DNA of 36,597 nt. Origin: a virus. The notes beneath the pieces are model-generated. The model worked only from the letters and a program-made list of their open reading frames with translations, did no database searches and was not told the DNA's origin. The stretch covers positions 1 through 36,597 of IMG/VR virus record IMGVR_UViG_3300043399_000686. The stretch is one strand, 5' to 3'. Positions 897 through 27,115 of the stretch are shown here, piece after piece; within the stretch, counting starts at the first letter, position 1, and every line of letters begins with the position of its first letter. Both the position numbers and the translations under genes were made by a program.

Positions 897-2273
897 ATGA
901 CAGATACAGCCCCCGCCTATGTGCTCGCCCCTGAAATCCCGCACAACTTTGAAGCCGAAGAAGCCGTTCTCGGTTCCATCCTGATCGCCGGCTCCGAAGC
1001 CTTCCACGCCTGCCGGGTCGAACTCCCTGCGGGCGGCGAAGAATTCTATATCCACCGTCACCGCTTTATCTGGAACGGATGCGAAAAGCTCGTCAATTCA
1101 AACAGCCCTATTGACCTGCTACTCCTGATTGACCAGCTCGAAAAAGATGGAACCCTCGCAGAGATCGGCGGCGAAGCCTATCTAACCGGTTTGATCAACC
1201 GCCCGCCGACCAGCCTCAACGCCAGTAAATACGCCGCTCTCGTGCATGAGCACCACATCCGCCGCGGCATGCTCAACGCCGCCAACGAGATCGCCGCGCT
1301 CGCTTATGACAGCAAACTGACCGCCGACGACGCCGCCAGCCAAGCAACTCACAAACTCTCGACCGCGGTAAGCGTCACGTCAACCAAGCGGGCAATCTCC
1401 CTCGCTGACAGCGTGCGCAGGGTGGATGCCCTGATTGAAGAGCGCCGCCATTCGACAGAACTGCCTGGCATCCCGACCCCGTGGAGTGATTATACAAAGC
1501 TACTCGGCGGCGGTTATCAGCCGGCAGACCTCTCGCTCGTCTGCGGACGCCCAGGTGACGGCAAGACCACCGCCCTCGGTCAATCCGCCTTGTATGCCGC
1601 CAAGTACATGATCGGCGCGAACATCCGCAGAAAGCATGTCGCTCTTTTCTCTTTGGAAATGCCCCATGAGCAAATCACGCTCCGCTTAATTTCGCAACTC
1701 TCCGGCATTGATTACCAGCTCTTGCAGTCCGGGCGCATCCCTGACGAAAAGTGGAATGACTACTACGCCGCCATTGACGAACTCTCCGATCTCGCCATTC
1801 ACTTGGACGACACAAACGGCGCGACGCCTGCGTATATCCGTTCCCGCTGTGAAATTCTCGCCTCCGCCGGCATGCTCGACATCGTGTTTGTTGACAGCTT
1901 GAACCTCATGAAGTCCGGCACCGGACGCAGTTTTGCAGGACGTGAATTTGACGAAGCCAACATCTGCGCCCGTGAATTGAAATACATCGCCAAAGATTTC
2001 AACATTCCGGTCGTGGCTGTGCATCAGCTCAACCGTGATATTGAAAAGCGAAGCGACAACTCCAAGCCGAAACTCGCTGACCTGCGCGACGGCGGAGACA
2101 TGGACGCCGCCAACGTCATGATTATCTGGCACGAGCGCGACGACGATAGAAACATCAAGCAAAGCGCTTTCTGTCAGGTCAAGCACCGCAACGGTCCAGT
2201 CAAAGAAGTGCCAATTATCTTTCAGCAAGCCCGAAACCGCTTCGCCAACGCCACCATACAGAGGTTCAACTAA
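897..2273 (+). CDS. dnaB: Replicative DNA helicase, DnaB family
   Basis: Hexameric 5'-3' replicative helicase that unwinds the fork for phage DNA synthesis in the cytoplasm. At 458 aa it has the normal DnaB length. The N-terminal DnaB domain begins with the usual PHNFEAEEAVLGSIL pattern (about residues 15-30). The RecA-like C-terminal domain shows Walker A GRPGDGKTT (217-225), the H1a-type FSLEMP motif (251-256), Walker B DIVFVDSLNLM (328-338), the glutamine-bearing HQLNRDIEKR motif (376-385) and LADLRDGGD near 393-401. The Walker A has Asp where GRPGMGKT is usual. It lies between the O-like initiator and the sigma gene, whose ATG overlaps this stop (TAATG), so translation is coupled. No primase domain is fused. 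Confidence 0.95.
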   Translation: MTDTAPAYVLAPEIPHNFEAEEAVLGSILIAGSEAFHACRVELPAGGEEFYIHRHRFIWNGCEKLVNSNSPIDLLLLIDQLEKDGTLAEIGGEAYLTGLINRPPTSLNASKYAALVHEHHIRRGMLNAANEIAALAYDSKLTADDAASQATHKLSTAVSVTSTKRAISLADSVRRVDALIEERRHSTELPGIPTPWSDYTKLLGGGYQPADLSLVCGRPGDGKTTALGQSALYAAKYMIGANIRRKHVALFSLEMPHEQITLRLISQLSGIDYQLLQSGRIPDEKWNDYYAAIDELSDLAIHLDDTNGATPAYIRSRCEILASAGMLDIVFVDSLNLMKSGTGRSFAGREFDEANICARELKYIAKDFNIPVVAVHQLNRDIEKRSDNSKPKLADLRDGGDMDAANVMIIWHERDDDRNIKQSAFCQVKHRNGPVKEVPIIFQQARNRFANATIQRFN

Positions 2274-3043
2274 TGTATCAATCCGCCGACCTCAACCACC
2301 CCATCCTTCCCGAAGCCGAAATCCGCGAACTCGTCCGCCGGCACCGCGCCGGCGACGAGGACGCTGCCGCCCGCATCATCAAACACAACGAGCGCATGAT
2401 TTATCGTATTGCCCGCCGCTACCACTCCACCCGCGTATGTGGAGACACACCGCTCGAAGACCTCATGCAATGGGGTCGCATCGGCATGATGAGAGCACTT
2501 GAAGATTTTGACATTGAAAGAGGGAACAAATTCACGACCTACGCATGGTCATGGGTCCGCATGTACATCAGCCGGTACGGCATGCAACAGGGACAAAAGG
2601 TGAAGCTGTCCTACCAAGCCAACCAAAAGCGGGCAAAGATCGGGCACGCCCGCGAGACATTTATGCAGACCGAGCACCGCGAGCCGACGCCTGAAGAATT
2701 GCAGAAAATCGTCGGTATCTCCGCTGAAAAGATCATGGACCTGGGCGTTCCGGTGGTCAGCCTCGAAATGAAGATCAACTCCGTGGACACCATCGGCGAA
2801 GCGCTCCAAGACCGGGACGCCGACCTTGCCCAGCAGATCGAAGACCGTCTCACCGCAGAGACACTCATGCGCCGCATCCGTCGCATGCCGAAACGCACCC
2901 AGCAGATCATCGCCATGTCCTACGGGCTGGACGGCGGCGAGCCGGCGAGCTTGCAGCTCATCTCCGAAAAGCTGGGAGTCACCCGGGAACGTGTCCGGCA
3001 GATCCGCGAGGAAGCCCTGAAATACCTCCGGCAAATGGCATGA
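2273..3043 (+). CDS. Sigma-70 family RNA polymerase sigma factor, primary/group 2-like
   Basis: Predicted to redirect host RNA polymerase to phage promoters. The 256-aa protein has region 2 at about residues 33-103 (GDTPLEDLMQWGRIGMM, then KFTTYAWSWVR, resembling the RpoD segment that melts the -10 element). A region 3-like segment follows at 105-150 and region 4.2 sits at the C-terminus (LGVTRERVRQIREEALKYL, about 234-252), very close to the RpoD -35 recognition helix. Region 1.1 is absent, so it resembles a group 2/3 sigma rather than an ECF factor. The start overlaps the helicase stop (TAATG). A candidate promoter element (3050-3078) begins immediately behind it. Which promoters it reads is unknown; the repeated TTTTCA-N17-TTTATT element is one hypothesis. 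Confidence 0.92.
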   Translation: MYQSADLNHPILPEAEIRELVRRHRAGDEDAAARIIKHNERMIYRIARRYHSTRVCGDTPLEDLMQWGRIGMMRALEDFDIERGNKFTTYAWSWVRMYISRYGMQQGQKVKLSYQANQKRAKIGHARETFMQTEHREPTPEELQKIVGISAEKIMDLGVPVVSLEMKINSVDTIGEALQDRDADLAQQIEDRLTAETLMRRIRRMPKRTQQIIAMSYGLDGGEPASLQLISEKLGVTRERVRQIREEALKYLRQMA

Positions 3044-3049
3044 AATTCT

Positions 3050-3078
3050 TTTTCATTTTCGATGCAATGTTGTTTATT
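3050..3078 (+). promoter_or_regulatory. Promoter-like element, copy A (TTTTCA-N17-TTTATT)
   Basis: TTTTCA at 3050-3055, a 17-base spacer, then TTTATT at 3073-3078 preceded by TTG. The same pair with exactly the same spacing occurs at 8649, 9905 and 11288. This copy lies between the sigma gene and the tRNA-like/structured RNA region and has no ribosome binding site after it. The element is therefore not just part of a translation leader. Confidence 0.55.
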
Positions 3079-3117
3079 CAGTAGAACGACAAAGCACCTT
3101 AACAACAGCACGCAAAT

Positions 3118-3208
3118 GGGTTTGTAGCTCAATGGCAGAGCATCCACGACGCCAAGCGAAACAGCGCGGCATGACGGAAGGTTACAGGTTCGACCCCTGT
3201 CAAATCCA
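3118..3208 (+). tRNA. tRNA-like element with an aberrant, extended anticodon arm
   Basis: The acceptor, D and T arms are canonical. The acceptor is 3118-3124 GGGTTTG with 3201-3207 CAAATCC (one G-U). The D arm is GCTC 3127-3130 with GAGC 3138-3141. The T arm is ACAGG 3184-3188 / CCTGT 3196-3200 with loop TTCGACC. No 5-bp stem with 7-base anticodon loop can be drawn between 3142 and 3183, where 42 bases replace the usual 22 or 23. They fold instead as TCC/GGA, a 5x5 internal loop, GCC/GGC, an AA bulge and GCG/CGC with a six-base loop. There is no encoded CCA and no anticodon can be assigned. It is probably a tRNA-like domain or a decayed tRNA, not a decoding tRNA. Confidence 0.55.
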
Positions 3209-4275
3209 CTAGGGAGGCGGTAAGTCCGCCGAAGCGCGAACGCCCTACGGAGCAAGTCAGCCGGATGTGTAGGCACACAGCCGGAACCACTGGTAAGCCC
3301 CCGACCGTTCGTGAAACCTACCGGGAGACAAGCAACGGAGAGACGTGCCGGCGGTTGTTGCCTCAATCGCCGAGGCTGGCAAGCCTTCGCCACCGGGCAA
3401 GCCCGGAGCGAGAACATGCAAATCAGTCGTCTCCATTTCTGACTATCGGTACTGCCACAATGACTGCGCAAGTCAGCGGGTGAGCAGGTGGCGAAAACCA
3501 TCCGAACGACTGATTACCCCAAGCCCCTCGGTGCGGTGAAGTCCACGAACAGTAAACAAACTGCCGGGGTGCGGAGTGAAATCTTGAAGGAGTGCCCGGC
3601 ACTAAAAACGCAGAGCTTCCGCGAAAGCGGCGATGACCGGGAACGTGGTGCAATTTGCCAAAGTCTGGATCACTCCTTCCCTTTGAATGTCACAGGTAGC
3701 AGCCGTCATGGTTTTTTAGCCATGTAAATGGTGGCTTTCGGCGAACCTCCTGCCTGTTTCATAGACCTGTCAAAGCGTAATTCATGCCCGTAGAACTGGC
3801 AGAGCATCGCCAGACGTAGGAGTGGTGCAGAGACAGGTATCCCCAGCCGTGTCCACGATGTGCAAGCGCCAAATTCGGTCATAACGTGGTATGGAGACCG
3901 AACGGCTGGGTGACCTCGAATACCCCATGACATGGGGAGCCGTGAGCGGCACGCCGGAAACCCCATGCCGGCGATGGTTCTGCTCAAACCATAGAGCAGC
4001 ACGGCTCCCCGCATTTGAATGTTTCGGGAGTAAACCTTCCCTGCCGTGACGAATGGCAGAACCTCCCGTTCATTACCCCGCCGCAGAGCCAAAAGCACGC
4101 GACCCAGCGCGGACGCGCCCGTGTGAAGTAGTCGCGGCGGGGTTCCATCAGCAATCACACGCGAGATCATGAGACGCCGGTAGAGATCGCGTGATAGGAA
4201 GTGGCGCCCTGATTGCAAAATCTTCGCGCCGAGGAGAAGTCCTTGCTTAATAGACAAATTTTTCCGGCGTCTCAT
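3209..4275 (+). ncRNA. Large structured non-coding RNA region (GOLLD/ROOL-like candidate)
   Basis: About 1.07 kb with no credible protein gene. It is packed with perfect or near-perfect helices. Local hairpins include GGCGG/CCGCC (3216-3230) within TAGGG/CCCTA (3210-3247), 3261-3284, 3349-3372, 3393-3406 and a CCGC-GAAA-GCGG hairpin (3619-3630). Longer helices are 3421-3430/3506-3515 (10 bp), 3562-3568/3595-3601 (7), 3842-3849/3903-3910 (8), 3934-3943/4001-4010 (10), 4076-4084/4134-4142 (9) and 4168-4180/4264-4276 (13). A pseudoknot is drawable at 3853-3902. The region sits between a tRNA-like element and a tRNA-Thr, behind a promoter-like element. GOLLD and ROOL are giant ornate RNAs of phages, often next to or enclosing tRNAs; family membership here is inference. 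It could be one RNA or two. Confidence 0.6.
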
Positions 4276-4347
4276 GCCGTGGTAGCTCAGTGGAAGAGCG
4301 ACTGCTTCGTAAGCAGTAGGTCGCGGGTTCGACCCCCGCTCTCGGCT
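4276..4347 (+). tRNA. tRNA-Thr (anticodon CGT)
   Basis: Complete cloverleaf. The acceptor is GCCGTGG 4276-4282 with TCTCGGC 4340-4346 (one T-T mismatch, one G-U). The D arm is GCTC/GAGC. The anticodon arm is ACTGC 4301-4305, loop TTCGTAA 4306-4312, GCAGT 4313-4317. The variable loop is AGGTC. The T arm is GCGGG/CCCGC with loop TTCGACC. Loop positions 34-36 are CGT, reading the threonine codon ACG. The discriminator base is T and CCA is not encoded, so host CCA addition would be needed. Its first base also closes a 13-bp helix with the upstream structured RNA. Confidence 0.9.
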
Positions 4348-4350
4348 CTC

Positions 4351-4425
4351 GGAAGCCTTTAGGCATCTAGGCACCCTAGCTCTGCCGAAGCTGAAAAAAA
4401 AGGCGAAGGCTTCCGACTTCGTTTT
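4351..4425 (+). terminator. Structured 3' trailer and weak intrinsic terminator after tRNA-Thr
   Basis: GGAAGCCTT (4351-4359) pairs with AAGGCTTCC (4406-4414), enclosing GGCA/TGCC (4362-4365/4383-4386) and CTAGG-CAC-CCTAG (4367-4379). An alternative hairpin CGAAG/CTTCG (4404-4408/4417-4421) runs into TTTT, which would make a weak terminator for the tRNA/structured RNA transcript. Confidence 0.4.
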
Positions 4426-4441
4426 CCCCTCCTTTGTCAAA

Positions 4442-4472
4442 GCACATGGCAGTTGTGGTGGCTGCCATGTGC
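4442..4472 (+). promoter_or_regulatory. Perfect 11-bp stem-loop in the leader of the nucleotidyltransferase gene
   Basis: GCACATGGCAG (4442-4452) and CTGCCATGTGC (4462-4472) pair perfectly around a nine-base loop. Flanking CCTCCTTTG and CAAAGGGAG can extend it with interruptions. No U-tract follows, so it is a leader structure or an operator rather than a terminator. Confidence 0.4.
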
Positions 4473-4506
4473 CAAAGGGAGAGCCAATCACCACGAAGGG
4501 AGATTT

Positions 4507-5085
4507 ATGAACCTTGAAGAAGCCCAACAACTCGCCAACCGAATACATGCCGACATGACCCCGTTCACAGTCCGCGCCGAGATTGCTGGCAGCGTCCGCC
4601 GCCGAAAGCAGAATGACATCAAAGATGTGGAGATCGTCTGCATCGCCAAGACCCAGCCTCTCACCGATATGTTCGGCATACAAACCGGAACTGTCAGCCT
4701 GCTCGAAAGTGCATTTCACGCCTTACTCAAACACTGGAACGCATGGACGATCAAAGCTGGCGAGAAATACAAGCAAGTCCTTTTTCCCGGCGGGCAGAAG
4801 CTCGACCTGTTCATCGTAACGCCGGAAACATGGGCGTATCAATTCGCCATCCGCACAGGACCCGCCGACTATTCACACTGGTTAGTCACACCCCGCCGCT
4901 ATGGCGGGGCGTTACCGTCCTATCTGACAGTCAAAGACGCCCGGTTGTGGAAAGGCGAAACCCCGCTTCCAGTATTTGAAGAAGCAGAATTTTTCGACAA
5001 TCTGGACCTTTATCCAATGCCGGCACCATGGGAACGCAAAGCGCCGGAGAATTTCAAACCATACAAGAAACAAGGAGCATCATGA
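4507..5085 (+). CDS. DNA polymerase beta/X-like nucleotidyltransferase
   Basis: A 192-aa protein with the nucleotidyltransferase palm pattern of family X polymerases. It has IAGSVRR (26-32), an acidic pair in DIKDVEIV (D40, E42) and a third acid in KLDLFIV (D100). The segment WAYQFAIRTGPADYSHWL (109-126) matches the conserved part of pol X fingers/thumb. The 8 kDa lyase domain and a PHP domain are absent, so it is a minimal form. The ATG at 4507 is chosen over an upstream ATG at 4453 because a GAAGGGAG ribosome binding site precedes it and the upstream ATG lies in the leader hairpin. The stop overlaps the next gene's start (ATGA). It may fill gaps in phage DNA repair or replication; activity is unproven. 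Confidence 0.75.
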   Translation: MNLEEAQQLANRIHADMTPFTVRAEIAGSVRRRKQNDIKDVEIVCIAKTQPLTDMFGIQTGTVSLLESAFHALLKHWNAWTIKAGEKYKQVLFPGGQKLDLFIVTPETWAYQFAIRTGPADYSHWLVTPRRYGGALPSYLTVKDARLWKGETPLPVFEEAEFFDNLDLYPMPAPWERKAPENFKPYKKQGAS

Positions 5086-6062
5086 GCGATTACATACACA
5101 TCGGCGAAGACCTCGGAATGGGCGCGAATAAGCTATGGGGAGCCGCCGGCGGACAGCAGACCGTCAGCCAGGTAGCCTCGAACGGCAACAGCGCCATCAG
5201 CGGGATGCTCGGCTTGAAAGCCAAGCGCCGCCCGCTTCACATCACCAGTGCCTTCGGCTCGTTCTACGTCGGCGAAGGTGCGCACGAGCACGGACGCCCG
5301 GTTGAAAATCTCGAATTTGACCGCCTGACCGGAGCACCCGAAATGCGCGCCCTGTTCTATGGGGCGCTCGTCAACTATCAAAACGAATACGGCGAGTTTG
5401 ACCGCCCGGTCTCCCTCATGGCAGGCTTGCCCCTGCAAATGATGACCGGCGCGAACGCCAAGAGCTACCAGCAAGCCGTCACCGGCTGGCTGAAAGGCAC
5501 GCACGAATTTGAAGCCGACGGAAAGCCGGTCAAGATCGAGATCGCCAAAGTCCGCCTGACCTCCCAGCCCGTTGGAGCCTTGTTCGACTACGCGCTCGAC
5601 GAAGAAGGCAACTTCCGCCCCGGCGGGACAGACGCCATGTTCGACGAAGTCGGCATTATCTCCATCGGCTTCAACACCCTCGAACTCTTGGTCGTGAAAG
5701 AACAGTCCGCCGTCGAACGCTTCACCCTCGGCAATACCGTCGGCGTCCGCCGCCTGCTCGAACTCATCAACCGCGAACGCCTGTTCTCGCTCGGCGAGCT
5801 TGACGAGAAACTGCGAGCCGGTCGCCTGAAGGCGGAAGTCAAAGCCGCGCTGCCCATTTGGGCGCGTGAAGTCAACGGCGAGATCGAGAAGTGCTGGGGC
5901 GCGAGTCACCGCCGCTTCTTGAAGGTCCTGATCGTCGGCGGCGGAGCGCTGCTCTTGAAAGACGCGCTTACTGCTCAATTCGGCGCGAAGGCATGGACGG
6001 CAGAAAATCCCGTCCTCTCCATTGCCCGCGGGCTGTACAAGCTCTCCGTCATGAAGCGATAG
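5082..6062 (+). CDS. parM: ParM-like actin-family ATPase (plasmid segregation type)
   Basis: A 326-aa actin-fold ATPase. The N-terminal phosphate-1 segment reads IGEDLGMGANKL (7-18), as in ParM/StbA-type proteins. The central QPVGALFDYAL segment is the connect motif region and IISIGFNTLELLVV holds phosphate-2, although the usual Asp-Ile-Gly is Ser-Ile-Gly. VLIVGGGALLL near the C-terminus is the adenosine-binding motif. ParM filaments push plasmid copies apart through an adaptor bound to a centromere. The ATG at 5082 is used because it overlaps the upstream stop (ATGA) and the actin motif starts at once. A small basic protein follows after 2 bases, as parR follows parM. This suggests the phage can persist as a plasmid; a cytoskeletal role during infection is the alternative. 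Confidence 0.8.
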   Translation: MSDYIHIGEDLGMGANKLWGAAGGQQTVSQVASNGNSAISGMLGLKAKRRPLHITSAFGSFYVGEGAHEHGRPVENLEFDRLTGAPEMRALFYGALVNYQNEYGEFDRPVSLMAGLPLQMMTGANAKSYQQAVTGWLKGTHEFEADGKPVKIEIAKVRLTSQPVGALFDYALDEEGNFRPGGTDAMFDEVGIISIGFNTLELLVVKEQSAVERFTLGNTVGVRRLLELINRERLFSLGELDEKLRAGRLKAEVKAALPIWAREVNGEIEKCWGASHRRFLKVLIVGGGALLLKDALTAQFGAKAWTAENPVLSIARGLYKLSVMKR

Positions 6063-6064
6063 CC

Positions 6065-6364
6065 ATGAACGAAGAAACGAGGCGCGGGCGCAAACCCGAC
6101 CTGATCAAGAGCGAGCGCATCCGCATCGAAGGAAATCGAAAACGCGGAGTGAGTGCCCGCGACGATAAAACCTTCGCATGGCTGGACGGCATCGACGAAA
6201 GGGGAGGGGATCGCTTCGGCTCCGTTTGGGAGTTGCTCACCGCCGCCCTCAACGGCGAACTCGGACCCGCAATTCAGGAAGCCGTCGAAGAAGGCGACGC
6301 AGAGAAAGCCCGCGAAGCCGCGAAGCAAATCCTCGCCGCCTTTGTCGTGGACGAAGAAGACTAA
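6065..6364 (+). CDS. Small basic protein, candidate ParR-like adaptor
   Basis: A 99-aa protein. The N-terminal 40 residues are strongly basic (RRGRKPDLIKSERIRIEG) and the C-terminal half is acidic and helical (EEGDAEKAREAAKQIL, then EED). This charge split resembles ParR adaptors, where an N-terminal ribbon-helix-helix domain binds the centromere and the acidic C-terminus contacts ParM. No family motif is certain. The ATG lies 2 bases after the actin gene stop. The ParR role is inferred from position, size and charge. Confidence 0.5.
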   Translation: MNEETRRGRKPDLIKSERIRIEGNRKRGVSARDDKTFAWLDGIDERGGDRFGSVWELLTAALNGELGPAIQEAVEEGDAEKAREAAKQILAAFVVDEED

Positions 6365-6368
6365 TTAT

Positions 6369-6406
6369 TAGCCGTCAGAAATTCGCGGTTGAATTTCTGA
6401 CGGCTA
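6369..6406. repeat. Perfect 16-bp inverted repeat after the parMR-like pair
   Basis: TAGCCGTCAGAAATTC (6369-6384) and its exact complement (6391-6406) flank a six-base GCGGTT loop. Neither strand has a U-tract after it. It begins 4 bases after the stop codon. Options are an RNA end-protecting hairpin, a terminator without U-tract, or a protein-binding site such as a centromere. Confidence 0.55.
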
Positions 6407-6501
6407 GAAATAAAACCGCTCCCCCACTTCTTAAACCCCTCATTTCCCCGATTTCCAAAAGGCAAGACACGCAAATTCACCCAATACACAAGGAGGCACC
6501 C

Positions 6502-6750
6502 ATGCCAAAGAAAGACCCACGCACCATCATCCCTACCCGTTACCTGCCCGCCGGCTCTCGTCGTGTTACTTCAACCGTTGACGGTCGCCGCGTCTGGCTG
6601 ATCCGTGGCAAAGAGTATGCCAGCAAGCGAGAATACTTCGCTTCCATCAGCCAACCCGCTCCCGCTGTGCCAGAAGCCCAGCCCACCGCCTCCGCCGACG
6701 ACATCATGAACGACGAAGAATTCGTGGACGCCGCCGCGGTCGAGGACTGA
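6502..6750 (+). CDS. Hypothetical protein (82 aa)
   Basis: The start follows a strong AAGGAGG ribosome binding site (6490-6496). The N-terminal half is basic with aromatic residues (TRYLPAGSRRV, RRVWLIRGKEYASKREYF), and the C-terminal part is Pro/Ala-rich and then acidic (DDIMNDEEFVD). No family is recognised. It opens the accessory stretch after the segregation-like genes and is followed 4 bases later by another small ORF. Confidence 0.7.
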   Translation: MPKKDPRTIIPTRYLPAGSRRVTSTVDGRRVWLIRGKEYASKREYFASISQPAPAVPEAQPTASADDIMNDEEFVDAAAVED

Positions 6751-14471: not shown

Positions 14472-14546
14472 TGGTGGCGAAGGAGGGACTTGAACTCTCA
14501 ACCTTCAGGGTATGAACCTGACGAGCTGCCATTGCTGCACCTCGCT
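14472..14546 (-). tRNA. tRNA-Met (anticodon CAT), initiator-like
   Basis: On the minus strand: acceptor AGCGAGG with CTTCGCC, discriminator A and encoded CCA (14474-14472). The anticodon arm is TCAGG-TTCATAC-CCTGA and the T arm is GAGAG/CCCTC with loop TTCAAGT. The core around the D and anticodon arms closely follows bacterial tRNA-fMet (GCAGC, GGCAGCTCGTC, CATAC). The first acceptor pair is an A-C mismatch and the D stem has A11-T24, both initiator traits. The anticodon stem has only two of the three usual G-C pairs. C-C in the D stem and A-C in the T stem are imperfections, so it may be partly decayed. Confidence 0.8.
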
Positions 14547-16096: not shown

Positions 16097-16840
16097 TTAG
16101 TGAAGCTCCGTATGTGCCTCCCACAGCCGGCGTACCTTTTCTTCGATCGTAGGTTCAACGGGTGGGGTAGTGGGTTCGATAACAACCGGCTCAATGGTCT
16201 CTCCGGTGAAATTCAAATACGTCGCAGAGACCCATTCAGGACGCAAGGAACGAAGCCGCGCCCAATTGCCGGAGCGTTCGACCACATGCACGCGCTCTTT
16301 GCGATAAAGAGCACTGAGCCGGATTGCGCCGGCATCCGGTTCGCTTCGCACGTTCAACCCGCCGTAAGCGATGACTTCCGCGACCGAGAGTTTTTCCGGC
16401 AGGTACTTCAGGCACCACGCCATCGGGTCAACCGCGGTCTGATCGCTGGCATGCAGTCCCGGCGGGCGGATTTCCCAATGCAGGTGAGCGCCGGTCGAGA
16501 CGCCGTCACCGTCCACCTTGTCCCGCGGGTCTCCGCCGGATAAACCGATCAAGTCGCCGGCTTTCACGTTCTCGCCGACGGTGACCAAGAGCTTATTCAA
16601 ATGCCCGTAGATGGAGAGCGAACCGTCCGGGTGCAAGATGCGGATATGCCGACCGTAGCCGGTTTGCGAAGTCGTGGCGACCTTCACCGTGCCGTCCATG
16701 CAGGCATATACCGCCGTGCCGGGCATGATGCCGTAGTCAATGCCCTTATGGCGCTGGTCACCGCCATAGAGAGCTGGATTGAGATTGTTGAAGACCTGCG
16801 TCACTGGCGCGGTCGGGATGGTTGGAAAAACTACATTCAT
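16097..16840 (-). CDS. Endolysin: M23 peptidase plus SH3-like domain
   Basis: A 247-aa peptidoglycan hydrolase. The lysostaphin-type M23 zinc site shows HKGIDYG (H31, D35), IYGH (H80) and GAHLHWE (H119, H121). Residues about 155-212 form a bacterial SH3-type wall-binding domain (GGLNVRSEPDAGAIRLSALY, then WARLRS). The Pro-rich tail ends in a short helix. There is no signal peptide, so release would need a holin. Its start overlaps the stop of a 71-aa hydrophobic protein. The late position fits lysis; a tail-borne hydrolase is less likely because the protein is small and separate. Confidence 0.88.
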   Translation of the reverse strand: MNVVFPTIPTAPVTQVFNNLNPALYGGDQRHKGIDYGIMPGTAVYACMDGTVKVATTSQTGYGRHIRILHPDGSLSIYGHLNKLLVTVGENVKAGDLIGLSGGDPRDKVDGDGVSTGAHLHWEIRPPGLHASDQTAVDPMAWCLKYLPEKLSVAEVIAYGGLNVRSEPDAGAIRLSALYRKERVHVVERSGNWARLRSLRPEWVSATYLNFTGETIEPVVIEPTTPPVEPTIEEKVRRLWEAHTELH

Positions 16841-17052
16841 GCCTGCCTCCGAGATAGAGCACGTTCGAAAACGTGCGCAATTTGTTCTTTGATGTTGGGG
16901 TCTCTGCGAAGCGTTGAGATTGCCAGCGTGATAAAAAACTTTGCCTCAATCATGTCCGCCGCCTCATCGCTTATTGGCGGGGTTTCTGCAAGCAGGGTGT
17001 CTAAAAAGCTAAGAGCCGTTGCCAGAAGGGAGATTGCCGCCGTTTTCAGCAT
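16837..17052 (-). CDS. Small protein with N-terminal hydrophobic helix, holin candidate (71 aa)
   Basis: It lies immediately upstream of and overlapping (ATGA) the endolysin. One hydrophobic segment (AAISLLATALSFLDTLLA, about residues 5-22) is followed by a more amphipathic helix (FFITLAISTL) and a basic C-terminus (ALSRRQA). Size, position and basic tail fit a small holin, but the single clear membrane helix and lack of family motif keep this tentative. It overlaps the upstream gene by 44 bases. Confidence 0.6.
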   Translation of the reverse strand: MLKTAAISLLATALSFLDTLLAETPPISDEAADMIEAKFFITLAISTLRRDPNIKEQIAHVFERALSRRQA

Positions 17053-17647
17053 TTGAAATAACTCTCAGGTTGGGATCAATGATGGTGAGGACCTCTTGCA
17101 AGGTAATCGGTAATCGTGGGGCATGGCTTCCGACCTCGGTTGCCATTTGCAGGATAGCTGCAAGATTGCCTCCGTGATCACGCTGACCAAGATAGAACTG
17201 TGCCGGCAAGCGGACAGACCAATAATGCGACTGCGCTGCCTCGAACTCAGCCCGACTGACTTTGGGGAGTTTATCAAGTGCGGCGAGTAGGTGCTCAACT
17301 TCCTTGATGCGCCCTTCAATCATGATTTCGAGTGCAAGTGCCTTGCGCTTTGCCTTTGCTGCCAAAACCTTTAGTCGTTCAGCCTGGATGCCGGTTGCTT
17401 TTTCTAATGACCCCTCGTACTCCTGTGCTTCTAGCTCTGCAAGGCGCATGTCGTCGTGACTGTCTCCGATGCTGAACATAAGTGCGTACAATTCGTCGAG
17501 TACCTGCTTGCGTTGGGTCTCTGGCGTCGAGTGCTGACCGATAACGAAATGGTCTAATACATAATTGGAGCGAGGTTGCCCCATCTCACGCATCTCGTCC
17601 ATGAGCGCCTGGATGGAATTGAGGGGTTTTGAAATTTCTTCTTTCAT
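17009..17647 (-). CDS. Hypothetical helical protein (212 aa) downstream of the fibre genes
   Basis: A mostly alpha-helical soluble protein. The N-terminal part (NSIQALMDEMREMG) is followed by long charged helices (MRLAELEAQEYEGSLEKATG, then ERLKVLAAKAKRKALALEIM) with coiled-coil character, and a C-terminal region with scattered hydrophobics. AGGAGAA upstream supplies the ribosome binding site. It sits between fibre and lysis genes, so it may be a virion-associated or fibre accessory protein. No family is recognised. Confidence 0.75.
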   Translation of the reverse strand: MKEEISKPLNSIQALMDEMREMGQPRSNYVLDHFVIGQHSTPETQRKQVLDELYALMFSIGDSHDDMRLAELEAQEYEGSLEKATGIQAERLKVLAAKAKRKALALEIMIEGRIKEVEHLLAALDKLPKVSRAEFEAAQSHYWSVRLPAQFYLGQRDHGGNLAAILQMATEVGSHAPRLPITLQEVLTIIDPNLRVISNAENGGNLPSGNGS

Positions 17648-17666
17648 GTTGTTGTTCTCCTGTTTA

Positions 17667-19280
17667 TTATGAAAATGTTCCGTTTGAGCCTTGCGCTCCG
17701 TCAGTCAATCCGACTACTAATTGAGCCGATGTTGAAAACGTCTCGGTTGGGGCATCGAGTTTGTATCCCTGCGATCTTGGTGCAGTAGCCGATCCTGCGA
17801 TATAAGCTGTGGTCAACCCGTCTGTTGCTGACATCGACATCGAGCTTGCCCCTGACGGGAACGATGCGACGGTTGCTTGTGCTCCTGTTGCGTAAACGAT
17901 TTTGTTGCATGCCGCATCATTAGCGTTGTAGCCGGCTGATGCAGCGAATGAAGTTGACGAGTAAGTGTTTACTGCTGCGGGCAAAGCCCCAGCGCCATTA
18001 GCAGACACCGCCCCTGTTGCAATAACGATTTTGTCGCAAGTAGCAGCAGTCCCGCCTCTGACATAAGAGTTTGTGCCGTCTGACAGTTGCGTTTGGTATG
18101 ACCTTGCACTTGTAAGCGGAGTGCTGGCGATAGTGGTCATTGTCGCGTAAGTACACATATCTACTGTTGTAGATACCGATCCACCGGCAACGTATCCTTT
18201 TGTCGCCCCTGATCCAGACGGAGAAAGGTGCTGACGAACTGAGGTTATGTTTGCCGTTGAAACCAAAGATGTAGTCTCTGACGCAAAAGGCATATAAAAT
18301 GCCGTTGCCACAACCGACACAGACAAGCCGCCTATCGCAAAAGCCCCGTAAGTAGAATACGTCAGACCTGCGCTCTGATAATTCGGAGTTGGCAGGTTAG
18401 CAGTACCCACCGTTGACCATGCTGCGACGGTCATGTTCATTTTTTGGACAACCGCCGACGCTGATCCCGTATCGCCGCCTAATGCGTAACCATTTGATCC
18501 GGTCACGACTTGGTTGAAATTTTGGACAAGCATAGCGTACACCTGCCCTTCTGATCCTCCTGCCTTAGCGGACAGAGCAACCGCAAACGCGCCAGATTCG
18601 AAGAAGTATCCGACGCCCTTTGCCTTGCCTACCGTTGTCGATGAGGCTAGGAATTGACCACGAGCCACCGCAGCCGATGTGCAGTTTACGCTCACAATAG
18701 TGCCAGGTCGGAGATAGACGATACCCGCTCCGTTATTCGGGATTGCTTGGGCAGCAATGCCGGCGACACGCAGGTCGGATGGAATGGTTGATGTTTTGAA
18801 TGACAGATCGTTCGCGTCGTCAAAAACGACAATATCGCCAGCGTTCACGCCTGCGCCTGATTTGTTGGTCATAACCGCCTCGGACGACGATGAGACCACG
18901 AGCCAATAAGTGCCGTTGTATCTCAACGTCAGCTCTCCAACGGTATCGAGTGCCGTGTGTTGACCGTTTGGCGTCTGGATGTTTCCCGCCGCATGCCGAA
19001 CGCGAACAATGCGACCAGCGTTGACCCCTTGAAGGGTAATCACGTCGCCGTCTGCGCCTCCGTTGATGGTGTCGAGGTCGTCGTAGGCTGCGGACGCCTC
19101 GGTGTCAACCTTGTAATGTCCCTCGCCGGAAGCGGGAGAGACCGTGATTGCTCCACTGGAAATGGATTTATCAGAGCCGGCTACCTGCACGATGCGGATA
19201 GCGTCCTTGACTACATTGTTATACAGTTGAGGCGTCGCTTGCGTTGAGCCTACTGCCGGGATGGTGGAAGAATTGGGCAT
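17667..19280 (-). CDS. Tail fibre / receptor-binding protein with beta-propeller-like repeats
   Basis: A 537-aa protein very rich in Ser, Thr, Ala and Gly. The N-terminal 250 residues are beta-structured and resemble the fibre shaft/adaptor part. From about residue 265 five or more repeats of roughly 45-50 residues recur with a G-Y-x-x-G-G pattern (NGYALGGDTGS, YGAFAIGGLS, KGYVAGGSVS, NSYVRGGTAA), as in Kelch-type propellers. Such modules at the tail tip usually bind host surface ligands. The ATG at 19280 leaves 9 bases to the upstream gene. The repeat reading is by eye; propeller blade count is not certain. Confidence 0.75.
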   Translation of the reverse strand: MPNSSTIPAVGSTQATPQLYNNVVKDAIRIVQVAGSDKSISSGAITVSPASGEGHYKVDTEASAAYDDLDTINGGADGDVITLQGVNAGRIVRVRHAAGNIQTPNGQHTALDTVGELTLRYNGTYWLVVSSSSEAVMTNKSGAGVNAGDIVVFDDANDLSFKTSTIPSDLRVAGIAAQAIPNNGAGIVYLRPGTIVSVNCTSAAVARGQFLASSTTVGKAKGVGYFFESGAFAVALSAKAGGSEGQVYAMLVQNFNQVVTGSNGYALGGDTGSASAVVQKMNMTVAAWSTVGTANLPTPNYQSAGLTYSTYGAFAIGGLSVSVVATAFYMPFASETTSLVSTANITSVRQHLSPSGSGATKGYVAGGSVSTTVDMCTYATMTTIASTPLTSARSYQTQLSDGTNSYVRGGTAATCDKIVIATGAVSANGAGALPAAVNTYSSTSFAASAGYNANDAACNKIVYATGAQATVASFPSGASSMSMSATDGLTTAYIAGSATAPRSQGYKLDAPTETFSTSAQLVVGLTDGAQGSNGTFS

Positions 19281-19289
19281 ATAAAATCC

Positions 19290-19808
19290 TTATCCTATGG
19301 TGAGTTCGTACTCAAAAGTCAGATCGACCGCGCCGCCGCTGTTGTCGTAGGATTGCAGATAGTGAGAAAACAGAGCGCCGGTATTGAGGGTGGCAGTTGC
19401 CAGCGAGCCGCCGAAAACTCCACACTCTGTAATGGCGAAGCTGCTTTCGGACGCTAGGTAAAACGCTCCAAATGAGATTACATTTCCAAGCCGGGTTTTA
19501 GACGTCCATAGTTTTCGGGACGCCTCCGTGTTCAAGGCGGTGTCGCTGACAGTTGGTGTCGTGTTATCGGTCCCGATTGCATGGTAGGTGAGACCCACCG
19601 CTTCGACGTCAATCAGTACGTCTCCTACTAGCTCTTTGCCGGATGTGACAATCAGATTTTTTTTGGTGTCTGTGAAAACCGCAAGGTCTCCGTAGAGACT
19701 GTGAATTTCAAAGATTGACAAGCCGCGGGATAAATGAAGTTCAAGGACCCCGCGAGGAAAAGCTCGCATTGTAGATTGACCCGAAAGGCGAAAAATGTCA
19801 TTTGACAT
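19290..19808 (-). CDS. Tail fibre-associated protein (172 aa)
   Basis: The central segment TYHAIGTDNTTPTVSDTALN followed by TEASRK is a pattern found widely in phage tail and fibre-linked proteins, followed by beta-rich sequence (FGAFYLASESSFAITECGVF). It lies between two fibre genes and overlaps the next upstream ORF by 11 bases. It is likely a virion or assembly component of the tail tip; exact role unknown. Confidence 0.7.
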   Translation of the reverse strand: MSNDIFRLSGQSTMRAFPRGVLELHLSRGLSIFEIHSLYGDLAVFTDTKKNLIVTSGKELVGDVLIDVEAVGLTYHAIGTDNTTPTVSDTALNTEASRKLWTSKTRLGNVISFGAFYLASESSFAITECGVFGGSLATATLNTGALFSHYLQSYDNSGGAVDLTFEYELTIG

Positions 19809-19998
19809 GAATTACTCCGTTCTTGTCTGCCATTCCCGCAAGCTGAAGCAGAACAAGCAGCAGCTCGTCTTTTTGCTGGGCGTTCAGTTGAGAAAAGGTT
19901 TTGCCATTGTGCTTTTTAAGTTTGTTTCTGCCGTCAGCGATTTTTTCGCTAGAGACTTTGTAGCGATTAGGATTTTTTTTATCTTTCGTTACGCTCAT
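19798..19998 (-). CDS. Small basic protein in the fibre cluster (66 aa)
   Basis: A Lys-rich N-terminus (KDKKNPNRYKVSSEKIADGR) precedes a helix rich in Leu (FSQLNAQQKDELLLVLLQLA). It overlaps both neighbours slightly, as real genes in this operon do. It is too short for a virion fibre and could be an assembly helper. No family is recognised. Confidence 0.65.
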   Translation of the reverse strand: MSVTKDKKNPNRYKVSSEKIADGRNKLKKHNGKTFSQLNAQQKDELLLVLLQLAGMADKNGVIHVK

Positions 19999-20387
19999 GG
20001 TGCCTCCACGGAGTAAATAACCGCTTGCGCCGTTCCCACTTCAACAACAATCGTCACGCCGGGAGTGTCGCAAGTCAGTTCAATTTGGTTTTTGCCGTCG
20101 CTGTCAAGGGTTAGGGTGTCAGCCGCCGCGTTGACAGCGAACGTAATTTCAGCAAGCGGAGTGCCGGTGAATTCAATGCGTGCCGCGTTTTCGCCATTTG
20201 CCAATAGAAGCTGTTCGGAGGGTGTGAGAATTACGGGCACGTTTGGAATATCTGCCAGAGCCGGAACATTTCCGGCATTGATCCATGAAAGCACGTCCTG
20301 ATAATCTCGGTTGTTCGGGTCGGCTGGGATGATTGCGCCGTCCGAGATCCGTTTGATTGCGTCTGATAAGTGAATTAATTGATACAT
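19995..20387 (-). CDS. Tail protein, fibre assembly/connector-like (130 aa)
   Basis: The N-terminal RISDGAIIPADPNNRDYQDV followed by LSWINAGN matches a short motif common in phage tail fibre connector and fibre assembly proteins (DGA-IP-D--N-DY). The C-terminal part is a small beta domain (DTLTLDSDGKNQIELTCDTP). It abuts the carbohydrate-binding fibre, sharing one base. Confidence 0.7.
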   Translation of the reverse strand: MYQLIHLSDAIKRISDGAIIPADPNNRDYQDVLSWINAGNVPALADIPNVPVILTPSEQLLLANGENAARIEFTGTPLAEITFAVNAAADTLTLDSDGKNQIELTCDTPGVTIVVEVGTAQAVIYSVEAP

Positions 20388-21715
20388 TAGAGCCTCGCGT
20401 CTGCGATTAGGTGGATGTCAAGCGGGTTGCCGACTGCGGTCGATGCGTTGCCAGTAGCCACGATAGCGATTGTGTCGGAGTTTGTGACGCCAGCAGTTAC
20501 ACCAGTGGAGGAACAGTCTGCCGCGGCTACACTGTCACGAGCCTGCGCATTTGTGTTCGATGGGTTGTAGAAAGTGACCGTCGGCGTTGCCCTCATTGAC
20601 ACTGGAAGCCGGAGGGTTGCGTACTCCAATAAAGCGCCAGCTTTCCCGGCTATGAAGCGGAACGCGCCTGTAAGACCCGCGTTTTGCGCCGGAGCTGTCG
20701 TGAGCGGGAATGTCTTGTAAAAGTAGCGCCAGCAGCGCAATAACTGGATGCCAAGAGGGACGAATTCGAAGTCGGTCGCCGTTGTTCCGAGTTCTACTTG
20801 CAAGCCGGTGATTGTTATGTAGTTATTGATTGTGCCGGCAAGGTTTGTCTGTCCGGCTGCCCGGTTTGCGTCAGCGAAAGCCGCCCACGCAGCCGGCAAG
20901 GTGCCGACCGTGTAAGTCGAGCCGGCGCCAAAGTAGATAGTGAGCTGCATGGAGTAATTTGCGTCATTGTCAAATGCGCCGGTGGTATCCGCTGCAAAAG
21001 TGATTGTTTTCTTTTCCCATGTCTCCGCCGAGTTGACTGAAAAAGATTTGCATGTGTGCCGGCTGTTGTCGTTATCGAAAAGCTCTACCGCAAACGTGCC
21101 GGTAATTTTCGCCTTGACCCAAAAAGATACCGTCAGTTGTTGCGCCGAAGATGTGCCTTTACGAATACGCTGAAGGTCCTGCCCTTCGAAACGCATGGAT
21201 ACAGACGCAATATCCGAGGACGACGGAGCAGCGTCAGGAGTTGTGCATAGGAATTTCATCGAGTTACGGAAGCCGTAACCGGTCGGCACGTCGGTATCTT
21301 GGGTGACTGTCCACGTGCCAAGAGAGGATAGATTGAAACGGAATTGATCAACCGGGCAAAATGTATCCGCCGAAACAGATCCAGAAGATGTCCCATTTTG
21401 GGAAATTCGCATGTCGCCGTTTATGGCTAGGTTTTTGAAAAAGCCCGATGCAGCCACAAGGGCGCTGATAGATGTCGTGTGACCGCCGACGGTGGATGTC
21501 AAAGATGCGAGATCCGCGAGAATGTCGTCGATGTCACCCTCAATATTCGTGATGAATGACTGCGTCGCCAGCCAGTCACGTAATACGGAGACCGGGATTT
21601 GTTCGACCGATGGTGTGGTAGTCGGATTGACAACACCATAAATCCTCTCGTCGCCAGTGAGCGTAGCCGAGACAGGTTGATCGGTGAGTTTTTGGAACGT
21701 GGAAGGTGTGGTCAT
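20387..21715 (-). CDS. Tail fibre protein with carbohydrate-binding-like beta-sandwich
   Basis: A 442-aa protein. Residues about 1-90 form an N-terminal virion-attachment region with a short helical trimer-like stretch (DIDDILADLASLTSTVGGHT). From FFKNLAINGDMRISQNGTSS (about 91-110) it follows the pattern of the carbohydrate-binding jelly-roll module widespread in phage fibres, ending in FVPLGIQLLRCWRYFYKTFP. A further beta domain forms the C-terminus. Likely role: attachment to host-surface glycans. It is read directly after the tail hub gene. Confidence 0.8.
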   Translation of the reverse strand: MTTPSTFQKLTDQPVSATLTGDERIYGVVNPTTTPSVEQIPVSVLRDWLATQSFITNIEGDIDDILADLASLTSTVGGHTTSISALVAASGFFKNLAINGDMRISQNGTSSGSVSADTFCPVDQFRFNLSSLGTWTVTQDTDVPTGYGFRNSMKFLCTTPDAAPSSSDIASVSMRFEGQDLQRIRKGTSSAQQLTVSFWVKAKITGTFAVELFDNDNSRHTCKSFSVNSAETWEKKTITFAADTTGAFDNDANYSMQLTIYFGAGSTYTVGTLPAAWAAFADANRAAGQTNLAGTINNYITITGLQVELGTTATDFEFVPLGIQLLRCWRYFYKTFPLTTAPAQNAGLTGAFRFIAGKAGALLEYATLRLPVSMRATPTVTFYNPSNTNAQARDSVAAADCSSTGVTAGVTNSDTIAIVATGNASTAVGNPLDIHLIADARL

Positions 21716-21728
21716 TTGCAGAAAATCC

Positions 21729-23309
21729 TTATGGTTGGAACGCTCCGAAGCCCCAAACGAAGGCTACTTCGGGATCGTCCGAAAAATAATACGGTCCAGT
21801 GGATGTTGATTGGTCACTTGTCTCGGAAAGCGAGAGACTGTCTGACCATTGGTACACCTCGTCTAATACCTCGTCGTCACGCCATCCGACACGAGGCTTT
21901 GCATTACGATTTACAGTCAAAATGAAGTCAATCAAGTCGGCGTTGTAAGTTCCGAGATCGATTGTGTGTGTAGTTTTGCCGTCAATAAATATTTTTGTCG
22001 TCACCTTCTGGATCAAGTATTCCGCGTTCAATGCGTGGATGGTATTTGTGAACGGGATTACCATGCCGGCGCGGAGACCTGGCTGCAATGTTTTGAGCGA
22101 GATAGCGGTCTTTTGTTCTGCGCTTTCCAGCAGCCTTGACGTCCCGGCTACTTTGGCAATGTTCTTGTCTGTTATCGTGTCGTCCGTCAGGACATCATCG
22201 AAAATCATGCCAAAATGTTCTTGGCTTGCAGCGTCAACAACACGGGTCCTAAGAGGCACCTCATATTTAGCAATGATTTTGAGTGCGTTTGGCAGGTTAG
22301 GCAAGTTGTTCCTCGCCTCCAACACCTTCTCGGCGTAGTAATAAAGAATTTCATTGTCGTCGGAAAGCGCGTCGATGTAACCTACCTTGACTGAAAGCTG
22401 CGTCCAAGATGGTTCGTCAAACGTCCCGTCATTGCGATAAACAAGGATGCCGGTCTCCCCGTCGGGTGCGTGTAGCTTGAACGGCAGAAGGGCACGCTTC
22501 TCGGTACCGGTTCCGGGCAAATAAAAAGTGGCATCGAGTGATCGGTAGTTTCCGCCTATGACTTCCACACGGTTGACAACATCGGACCCGTCCCGGTTGA
22601 CTTCAAGGTCGTAGTAAGAGATCAGTGTCGAGCCGTTCGGGTTGTCCGAAAAAGCGAATGGCGCACTTGTTTCGCCAGTTGACTTCTCAAAAAAATGCAA
22701 TCGCTTGTTGTAGTCAATGTAAAATTCAGCGTTCGCAAAGTTCGCCAGTTGCTTTAGAACATCGAGCAGGGATTTGCGGTTAAACCGGATGCGTGAATGA
22801 GTTTTGATTTCTGTTACATACGTCACGCTGTCGAAGTTTTCGTCGGGTAAGTAACTCTCAAACAGGTCGGCGATTATTTCTTTGTCGGTCCAGCCATCGT
22901 ATTCTTCTTTGACAACCACTTTTTCGAGACGTATTGAGTAATCAGATGCCCGGACGCTGAAGTCAATGTCTAAGTCTGCGCTTTCTTCTTCGTCAATCTC
23001 CGTGACGTAGCCGGCAAACAAGCGCTCTCCATAATCAAAAATGACCCCATTCCCATTTTCGAAAATGAGACCGTCTCCATTTTCTAGCAAGCCGCCCACT
23101 TCCGCGTTTGTACGGTATCCCTTTGTTACGACAAGCTCCTTCCACGTGGAAAGAGTAATAGCCGACGCCCGCTCTAAAATCAGTTTGCAGGTATCGGCGC
23201 GACGAGACAACATGTTATTGATAGCGATGCCGGCTTTGGGGTCAACATAGTTCGTAACGTCAATGCCATCCAGCCAAACAGTGACCGCCAGCTTTTCAGG
23301 AAACGTCAT
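21729..23309 (-). CDS. Tail hub / baseplate protein (gp27-like)
   Basis: A 526-aa protein whose start overlaps the tape measure stop (ATGA), the usual place of the tail hub. It begins with a beta domain (VTVWLDGIDVTNYV), has a Gly-rich repeat (LENGDGLIFENGNGVIFDYG, about 75-94), and a hub-type middle with helices in LLDVLKQLANFANAEFYIDY followed by beta structure. The last 60 residues are acidic and may dock fibres. It probably closes the tail tube and links fibres. No peptidase motif was seen. Confidence 0.75.
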   Translation of the reverse strand: MTFPEKLAVTVWLDGIDVTNYVDPKAGIAINNMLSRRADTCKLILERASAITLSTWKELVVTKGYRTNAEVGGLLENGDGLIFENGNGVIFDYGERLFAGYVTEIDEEESADLDIDFSVRASDYSIRLEKVVVKEEYDGWTDKEIIADLFESYLPDENFDSVTYVTEIKTHSRIRFNRKSLLDVLKQLANFANAEFYIDYNKRLHFFEKSTGETSAPFAFSDNPNGSTLISYYDLEVNRDGSDVVNRVEVIGGNYRSLDATFYLPGTGTEKRALLPFKLHAPDGETGILVYRNDGTFDEPSWTQLSVKVGYIDALSDDNEILYYYAEKVLEARNNLPNLPNALKIIAKYEVPLRTRVVDAASQEHFGMIFDDVLTDDTITDKNIAKVAGTSRLLESAEQKTAISLKTLQPGLRAGMVIPFTNTIHALNAEYLIQKVTTKIFIDGKTTHTIDLGTYNADLIDFILTVNRNAKPRVGWRDDEVLDEVYQWSDSLSLSETSDQSTSTGPYYFSDDPEVAFVWGFGAFQP

Positions 23310-25459
23310 GCGACCGCTCCCTGCTGTTTCAGGATTTTATAAATTTCACGAGCCACGGCTTCCGGGTCTTTTGTGCCATCTACATTGATGGTGACGGGTG
23401 ACATTCCGCCTGAAGCTGGGGAGACGGACTGCGAGAAAGCAGAAGACACGCCGGCTGAAGTCCCTTCGATTGCTTTGACCGCCGAGCTAGTTGCTTTGAT
23501 GCCGTTTGCGAGACCCTGGACGATATTTTCGCCGAAGCCAAAAAACACCTGTGACGGAGACTTGATTTTCGCCGTGGTAGCGAAAGCCTTTGCGATTTCT
23601 TCGGCTACCTTTTTCGCCAAACCGACGACCGCGCCAATCATTGAAGAAATTCCGTCGTAGAGACCTTGCATGAGCTGTTTACCCATATTGCGCATGGTGC
23701 CTACTAACCCTTGCAAGTAACTGACAATTTGCTGCATGCCGGAAATGAAGCTGTCGTAAATATTCGTGACGAACGTGCTGACAGTTGTCACGATAATTGC
23801 TCCGATTTGCTGCAAGATACTAAGGAACATTCTCCAATTATTGCCCCACACCTGCCCGATTTGGGCTAGGCTGGTACCCATAAAACCGGCAATCATATTC
23901 AAGAAGGCAACGACCACGTTATAGATTGTATTGAAAGTGGTGACAAGAATTGCAAGCAACGTCTGAAATGCGCCTTGAATATCTCCGGTGAAAATTTGCA
24001 TCCAGTACGTGGCGAATTGCAGCAGCAGGTCCAGCAGTCCGGTTAGTAGGGGCTGGATAACCGACCACAATGCGACAACAATCTGTCCAAAAGCAGAAAA
24101 CACTTCGCCGATTGACGCCATGTATTGCTGGATCAATGGTCCATTTGCTACGAACCATTCAGATATTTTGTTGAATTGCTCCGCCACCCACGGGATAACC
24201 GTGCCTCCGAGATCGCCCATAGCCGTCAGCATTGTTCCGAAGATAGACTGTACATTTGCAATAATGCCGGGTCCGTTGGTGACGAAGAAGTCAGCGAAAT
24301 TCTGAAGACCGGGCTGGATTTTCTCAAATGCGCCAGCCAAAGACCAACCAAGTTTTTCACTGAGGGCGAGTAACGGGTCAATAAAGCCGGATGCGATATT
24401 TTGCACGTAATCAAACATACTAAAAAGCTGCTCTTGGACATCCTGCGAGAACATGGACAAAAGCGCCTCCCTGAATTCAGAGGATGCAGGTCCAGCGTCT
24501 TTCAGAGCATCGTATAAATTTTGAAGATAATCAACCGCCACGCCGACACGGTCGCCGATACGTGTTCCAAGTTCTTCCAGAGCGCCGCTGTCCGAAAATG
24601 CAATAAAGTCGTTGAGGATGTTATTGAAAAAGCCAGTAACCCTCTCCGCTGCCGGTCCGAGGATTTTCGGCATAGTCAGGACGAATAAGTCTTTGAACGT
24701 GGATCCCAAGCCCATTAGCGTCCGGCTCATGCGCTCCGCCGCTCCGCCAAAGTTTTCGTCTGCGTATTTCTCAAAACCTTCGGCGAATTGCTGCCAAGTC
24801 AGCTTTCCGCTTGCGATTGCTTTGTTGAAGTCTTCATGGTTCTTGATTTCTAATCCGTAGGCGTCACCAATACCACGAAGAGCGCCGACCAAGTCGAAGC
24901 CGGCGAGCGCGAGTTGGCGGATGTCAACCCCGGTCACCTTGCCTTGCAAGCGGATCTGCGCAAAGTTGTAGCTCATGCGCGAAAGCATTTCATTTGTCGC
25001 CCCGACGCCGGACGCCATATTGAGGATGCCTTTGGTTAAATAAGTTGCTTCCTTTGAAGTAAATCCGAACGCCATGCCGAGGCGGAATGTTTCTTGAACG
25101 GTTCCCAGCTCGTACGGACTGGTAATAGCAATCTTGCGGAGCTGATCTGCGAGATTGCCGGCAATCGGCGCGGCTTTGTTGAGCGCTGTGTTGAGGTCTA
25201 GGGTTTTATCTGTTGCGCGAAGCTCACGAGCTACCAAAGTCGAAAGACCCATGTTGAACGCTTGCATCTGAGCGGTCGCTTCAATGGACGATTTTCCAAA
25301 ATTCCAAATACCCTGCGCTACATTCTGAATAAGCCCTGCGGTTAGGATGCCGCCGGCGATTTGCCCAATCGAGGAAATCGCGGACGCCACGGCTGAGAGT
25401 GGACCGCTTGCATTATCTTTGCCTTCTGCAACGATTGATAAAACGTAAGTGCTGCTCAT
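23306..25459 (-). CDS. Tail tape measure protein
   Basis: A 717-aa protein that sets tail length and occupies the tube lumen. The N-terminus has the tape measure domain pattern (FNMGLSTLVARELRATDKTL, then KIAITSPYELGTVQETFRLG, then TGVDIRQLALAGFDLVGALR), the middle has several hydrophobic stretches (VIQPLLTGLLDLLLQFATYW and TIYNVVVAFLNMIAGFMGTS), and the C-terminus is alpha/beta. ATG 25459 is chosen over 25519: AAGGAA precedes it and it overlaps the stop of the frameshifted chaperone (ATGA). By the usual rule of about 1.5 Angstrom per residue the tail would be roughly 100 nm. Confidence 0.92.
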   Translation of the reverse strand: MSSTYVLSIVAEGKDNASGPLSAVASAISSIGQIAGGILTAGLIQNVAQGIWNFGKSSIEATAQMQAFNMGLSTLVARELRATDKTLDLNTALNKAAPIAGNLADQLRKIAITSPYELGTVQETFRLGMAFGFTSKEATYLTKGILNMASGVGATNEMLSRMSYNFAQIRLQGKVTGVDIRQLALAGFDLVGALRGIGDAYGLEIKNHEDFNKAIASGKLTWQQFAEGFEKYADENFGGAAERMSRTLMGLGSTFKDLFVLTMPKILGPAAERVTGFFNNILNDFIAFSDSGALEELGTRIGDRVGVAVDYLQNLYDALKDAGPASSEFREALLSMFSQDVQEQLFSMFDYVQNIASGFIDPLLALSEKLGWSLAGAFEKIQPGLQNFADFFVTNGPGIIANVQSIFGTMLTAMGDLGGTVIPWVAEQFNKISEWFVANGPLIQQYMASIGEVFSAFGQIVVALWSVIQPLLTGLLDLLLQFATYWMQIFTGDIQGAFQTLLAILVTTFNTIYNVVVAFLNMIAGFMGTSLAQIGQVWGNNWRMFLSILQQIGAIIVTTVSTFVTNIYDSFISGMQQIVSYLQGLVGTMRNMGKQLMQGLYDGISSMIGAVVGLAKKVAEEIAKAFATTAKIKSPSQVFFGFGENIVQGLANGIKATSSAVKAIEGTSAGVSSAFSQSVSPASGGMSPVTINVDGTKDPEAVAREIYKILKQQGAVA

Positions 25460-25665
25460 TTTGGTGTTTCCTTCGGCTTTGGCTGCTCTTCGACCCATGC
25501 ACGCCAGCGCCACAACCATTCAAGGGTGATGCCGGCTTCGATTTCCCACGGCGGGGAGTGGAAAGCGAGTGCCATGTCCATAATTTCTACCCAATCGGGA
25601 GGGGGTTCAGACGAGACGTTCGATTTCCCGGTGAATTTCCTTAGTCCCCGCCGCTCGGAGGGTTT
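25456..25665 (-). CDS. T extension of the tail assembly chaperone, read by -1 frameshift
   Basis: An open -1 frame runs from the slippery site at 25665-25659 to a TGA at 25458-25456 that overlaps the tape measure start. It has no start codon of its own with good signals, but encodes a tryptophan-rich sequence (PPPDWVEIMDMALAFHSPPW, then TLEWLWRWRAWVEEQPK) typical of the T part of G/GT chaperones, which binds tail tube protein and tape measure. It is expressed as a fusion to the protein encoded at 25641-25943. Confidence 0.8.
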   Translation of the reverse strand, partial: KPSERRGLRKFTGKSNVSSEPPPDWVEIMDMALAFHSPPWEIEAGITLEWLWRWRAWVEEQPKPKETPK

Positions 25666-25943: not shown

Positions 25944-25950
25944 TGCTACC

Positions 25951-26934: not shown

Positions 26935-27115
26935 TGTTGATGGTCTCCTTTACGTCGTTTTTCTTATTAGGGGTGGCGGGCGCAACATATAGCCCGCTTT
27001 CAAGGCATTGCTTTTGCAATTTGACATCGAGCGCCTTGAATTCGCTGTCTGTCAGGTCACGAGCCGGCACGCCAGCGATAAACTGCGAGCCGTCTCCGGT
27101 GTATTTGTACGTCAT
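26927..27115 (-). CDS. Hypothetical small protein (62 aa)
   Basis: It overlaps the tail tube gene by 8 bases and the tail terminator gene by 4, so it is translationally embedded in the operon. Sequence: FIAGVPARDLTDSEFKALDV then a Cys-containing helix. The pattern resembles short phage head-tail accessory proteins with a GVPARDLT motif. No function is known. Confidence 0.7.
   Translation of the reverse strand: MTYKYTGDGSQFIAGVPARDLTDSEFKALDVKLQKQCLESGLYVAPATPNKKNDVKETINNG

Follow-up and report, generated by a model that had tools for sequence, protein, structure and literature searches.

Positions 3044–4506 of this DNA probably hold a large structured RNA, about 1.1 kb long, that matches no known family. 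The window, meaning the whole stretch of DNA that was analysed, is an entire virus record in IMG/VR, 36,597 bases long, from a divergent bacterial virus. Helix statistics, strand asymmetry, the lack of coding signal and the loci of relatives support a large structured RNA with a tRNA-like element on one side and a tRNA on the other; the RNA's transcription, processing and mode of action we infer. GOLLD and ROOL are very large folded phage RNAs that assemble into cages, and ROOL is an abundant RNA in the cell. The purpose of such cage-forming RNAs is the question on which the present case bears. If true, a further large RNA among tRNAs, unrelated to these two and with equivalents at this locus in relatives, would be an independent case for what these RNAs share, and its tRNA-like flanks allow the formation of its ends to be predicted in a testable way.

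Genomic setting and coding potential

The left end of the window reads rightward, in the order O-like replication protein, DnaB helicase, sigma-70-like factor, the gap at 3044–4506, a protein without assigned family (4507–5085, the first gene 3′ of the gap) and an actin-like protein. The original prediction that the gap contains no credible protein gene is borne out by codon usage and by family searches. With the phage's own genes as training set for a codon test, open reading frames within the gap scored −0.43 to −0.06 bits per codon; leave-one-out genes scored +0.08 to +0.46 and the gene at 4507–5085 +0.24. The test is supportive only, since an apparent gene at 6178–6750 likewise scores negative. 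Frames inside the gap had no Pfam match and a single PHROGs match, at E = 0.035. The longest (3706–4719, minus strand, 337 aa) runs antisense across the tRNA and reaches into the next gene. By codon scores, Pfam and PHROGs, a coding role for the gap is unsupported.

Features in and beside the gap:
2273–3043, plus strand: sigma-70-like factor gene, directly 5′ of the gap (Pfam Sigma70_r2/r3/r4; PHROG 351)
3118–3208, plus strand: tRNA-like element, a proposed processing signal (Rfam tRNA model, 49.5 bits; not called by ARAGORN)
3209–4275, plus strand: proposed structured noncoding RNA body, about 1067 nt (fold z = −4.55; no coding signal)
3421–3430/3506–3515, plus strand: 10-bp helix, mean pair probability 0.80
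3586–3594/3671–3679, plus strand: 9-bp helix, pair probability 0.77
3842–3850/3902–3910, plus strand: 9-bp helix, pair probability 0.83
3934–3944/4000–4010, plus strand: 11-bp helix, pair probability 0.79
4075–4084/4134–4143, plus strand: 10-bp helix, pair probability 0.98
4168–4180/4264–4276, plus strand: 13-bp terminal helix, pair probability 0.97
4276–4348, plus strand: tRNA-Thr (CGT) (ARAGORN; Rfam tRNA model, 63.4 bits)
4349–4416, plus strand: hairpin with an 11-bp stem (4349–4359/4406–4416), a possible transcript end, not called as a plus-strand terminator
4442–4472, plus strand: hairpin with an 11-bp stem (4442–4452/4462–4472), from the stem count

Base pairing and flanking tRNA elements

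Intense base pairing with long helices had been claimed for the gap, and the statistics agree. Eight perfect Watson–Crick stems of at least 10 bp occur in 3044–4506, a number that none of 200 dinucleotide shuffles reached (mean 0.93, maximum 4). At a threshold of 9 bp, 11 stems were observed (shuffled mean 3.5, maximum 9), and at 11 bp there were five (shuffled mean 0.19, maximum 2), while gene tiles of equal length had 0–3 stems of at least 10 bp each. Between the tRNA elements, the 1,067-nt stretch has a folding z-score of −4.55 on the plus strand and −2.03 on the minus strand. Tiles of 240 nt from the region were mostly unremarkable (z from 0.1 to −3.4), and that short tiles are weaker than the whole fits long-range pairing. 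Six long helices are present in the ensemble, with mean pair probabilities of 0.77–0.98. Stems 3951–3960/4261–4270 and 3386–3394/3487–3495 have pairing probabilities of 0.00 and 0.07, which points to chance, alternative or pseudoknotted pairings. One candidate long stem, 3381–3391/4402–4412, spans the tRNA boundary.

Among the tiles sampled in the window, folding was strongest in the one with a tRNA-Met (14472–14546, minus strand), located where the rightward gene block switches to leftward. Separately, a suggestive internal duplication within the gap (3584–3768 versus 3932–4074) did not reach significance (40 and 23 of 500 shuffles).

Both elements said to frame the region match the Rfam tRNA model, and the right-hand one is also called by ARAGORN. 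The left-hand element retains intact acceptor, D and T arms at tRNA spacing; in place of a 5-bp anticodon stem with a 7-nt loop it has just three pairs followed by a long arm. The right-hand tRNA does share a base with the last helix, as had been predicted: G4276, its first base, forms the last pair of the 13-bp terminal helix. The promoter-like element proposed for the left end fared worse, as no sigma-70-like site was found there. Neither a consensus promoter nor a plus-strand terminator was found for the region, and read-through transcription is therefore assumed.

We consider it an even call that the plus strand of the region yields a structured noncoding RNA, some 1.07 kb long, which is co-transcribed with the tRNA elements, freed by tRNA-processing enzymes and maintained as a stable folded molecule. 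Read-through from the DnaB–sigma genes would probably be the source of this plus-strand transcript, which would include both tRNA elements, and the left-hand tRNA-like element and right-hand tRNA-Thr would act as processing signals. The RNA would gain its 5′ end, near 3209, when the 3′ end of the tRNA-like element is processed, and its 3′ end, at 4275, when RNase P cuts before G4276 at the tip of the 12–13-bp terminal helix. By analogy with the ornate phage RNAs of tRNA islands, the freed RNA may remain stably folded while infection proceeds.

A degenerating tRNA array is an unlikely alternative, in which 3118–4348 would be a functionless spacer, tRNA-derived and full of hairpins, left from a locus that once carried several tRNAs. 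The element at 3118 could then be a tRNA with a spoiled anticodon arm, and a D-arm-like 15-mer, AATGGCAGAGCATCC, recurs in four copies (3131, 3606, 3795 and 4052; 80–100% identity); other odd tRNA-like elements in related phages would fit as well. Decay, however, should not generate an excess of long helices, and the regions of relatives retain their size and place and hold a highly conserved motif. It is improbable that the region acts at the level of DNA, for example as a replication origin, or as a long untranslated leader controlling downstream genes, rather than as a free RNA. The adjoining replication genes (O-like, DnaB) and the many inverted repeats would suit such a role, but the plus strand folds more strongly than the minus strand, short repeats are dispersed with no iteron array, GC skew shows no marked change, and relatives carry embedded tRNAs at the same place.

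Comparison with known RNA families

The region had been proposed to encode a GOLLD- or ROOL-like RNA or a new one, and only the second option survives. A covariance-model scan of 3000–4520 against Rfam 15 (cmscan, E ≤ 10, permissive filters) returned tRNA and chance matches only, with no match to GOLLD, ROOL or other large RNAs, so that the RNA is not recognisable as either. Introns, tmRNA and RNase P RNA likewise gave no Rfam match. Both GOLLD and ROOL are phage or prophage RNAs that often lie near tRNA islands (PMC12286853). Like GOLLD, which often exceeds 800 nt, the window region is large, extensively paired, phage-encoded and set in a tRNA neighbourhood; unlike GOLLD, it has no match at E ≤ 10 to the Rfam model of that family (conserved 3′ region). 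GOLLD forms an oligomeric nanocage. To ROOL, a large ornate phage or prophage RNA often near tRNA islands, the region is similar in kind, and again it differs in that the Rfam model of that family returned nothing at E ≤ 10. A strongly diverged GOLLD or ROOL missed by the covariance models is very improbable: size and tRNA neighbourhood are comparable, and in GOLLD the 5′ region is poorly conserved and the linker can hold tRNAs (PMC12286853), yet nothing matched at E ≤ 10 in the window or at E ≤ 5–10 in the regions of relatives. The best reading is that the window RNA resembles the ornate phage RNAs in kind and lies outside those families.

The same locus in related phages

Relatives were located by terminase homology, and few of them carry tRNA loci; protein searches with single neighbours (the sigma factor and the 4507–5085 protein) recovered none. 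The same phage occurs in a second metagenome, at 99.7% identity over window positions 16680–36597, a match that leaves out 3044–4506. In relative G003 (terminase 67%), DnaB and sigma (43%) genes are followed by about 1.2–1.37 kb without a clear gene, which carries tRNA-Met and tRNA-Thr and whose first 823 nt fold with z = −4.67. In G055 (terminase 48%), a DnaB-type gene is followed by about 1.15–1.2 kb of gene-free sequence with tRNA-Thr and tRNA-Met. A third relative, G002 (terminase 58%), has the sigma gene and no gap, which indicates that the RNA is dispensable. Outside the tRNAs, the window aligned with neither G003 nor G055 above the shuffled level; the mutual alignment of G003 and G055 beats all but 4 of 200 shuffles. 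RNA similarity searches among phages, plasmids and related viral records gave nothing beyond tRNA or chance matches. A 15/16-base match between window 3345–3360 and G055 was dropped, having a one-mismatch copy elsewhere in the window and an alignment at the shuffled level. The window RNA may be the counterpart of the relatives' RNA, a likeness limited to place and style.

The match between G003 and G055 gave a pattern that IMG/VR contains 22 times in exact form. Eleven distinct occurrences around the core GACGAAGGAAAGUCGNUAACUAAACC share a similar noncoding context, and the other matches look coding or unrelated. This core, absent from Rfam, is common to G003, G055 and nine further phage contigs. 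The noncoding motif GACGAAGGAAAGTCGNTAACTAAACC, which is conserved in at least 11 phage contigs and has no Rfam family, is often followed by TGACAG.CGGGAAA..GACCGG. Its sites are:
Strand sign not given: L049 11753–11785; L146 2060–2092; L214 7926–7958; L218 9509–9541; L222 9515–9547; L224 357–389; L226 1862–1894
Minus strand: L211 2731–2763; L215 4407–4439; L217 2866–2898; L220 9892–9924

In G003 and G055 the motif sits within the gene-free stretch that carries the tRNAs, in the same genomic position, and its conservation there implies that the relatives' RNA is conserved. L211 aligns with G003 across several blocks, with one compensatory pair in a hairpin 3′ of the core. An Rfam scan of the motif loci found only tRNAs, in nine of the loci scanned. 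Two 55–56-nt queries did not find the motif in GenBank phages, and its exact pattern was absent from 395 genomes of the phylum to which a MAG with a related terminase belongs. While the motif-bearing RNAs occupy the same genomic place in two terminase relatives, GACGAAGGAAAGUCGNUAACUAAACC itself is absent from the window (cmsearch, model R1, filters off), where the best score was 11.8 bits, outside 3044–4506, against 46.7–52.4 for members. This missing motif counts against a structured RNA in the window, as do the lack of a plus-strand promoter or terminator, the unremarkable tiles, the absence of the region from G002 and the lack of an alignable homologue. It is possible, though we think it unlikely, that these loci form a new, fast-evolving class of giant phage RNA, with one site 3′ of DnaB/sigma, tRNA-shaped modules and the core motif in most members; expanded, armless and circularly permuted tRNA modules would then provide both processing ends and structural cores.

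The tRNA-like elements around the motif loci are often unusual. In G003, a 189-nt stretch (L049 11117–11305) encloses two large arms, with its ends forming the acceptor stem and T arm. A 178-nt match to the tRNA model (L214 6230–6407) has an acceptor stem and T arm with large insertions elsewhere, and L222 has possible armless minihelices, judged by eye. Circularly permuted tRNAs were found in G051 (two), G059 and G020 (one, by eye), with genes at:
L060 ~5390–5480, minus strand
L144 ~4776–4690 and 4515–4445, minus strand
L145 2434–2500

In these genes the T arm and the 3′ half of the acceptor stem come first, and a joint of 3–16 nt connects them to the 5′ half and the D arm; CCA is encoded in at least one. 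The permuted pattern had six matches in real sequence, three of them clear tRNAs, versus four in shuffled sequence; the clear cases are set apart by an acceptor stem paired along its whole length and by D and T arms that match the consensus. A 2014 review of permuted tRNA genes does not mention phage (PMC3978253), and we found no report of phage permuted tRNAs in the literature. Directly 5′ of tRNA or permuted-tRNA modules in L144 and L060 (both minus strand) lies a repeated element like GATACTTTGAGGGCTTACATGA, which could be a promoter or processing site. The tRNA and structured-RNA locus of G020 also contains an open reading frame for an HNH-like endonuclease (L060 5697–6278, minus strand; CxxC...DHL...NL.AC.KCN, by eye).
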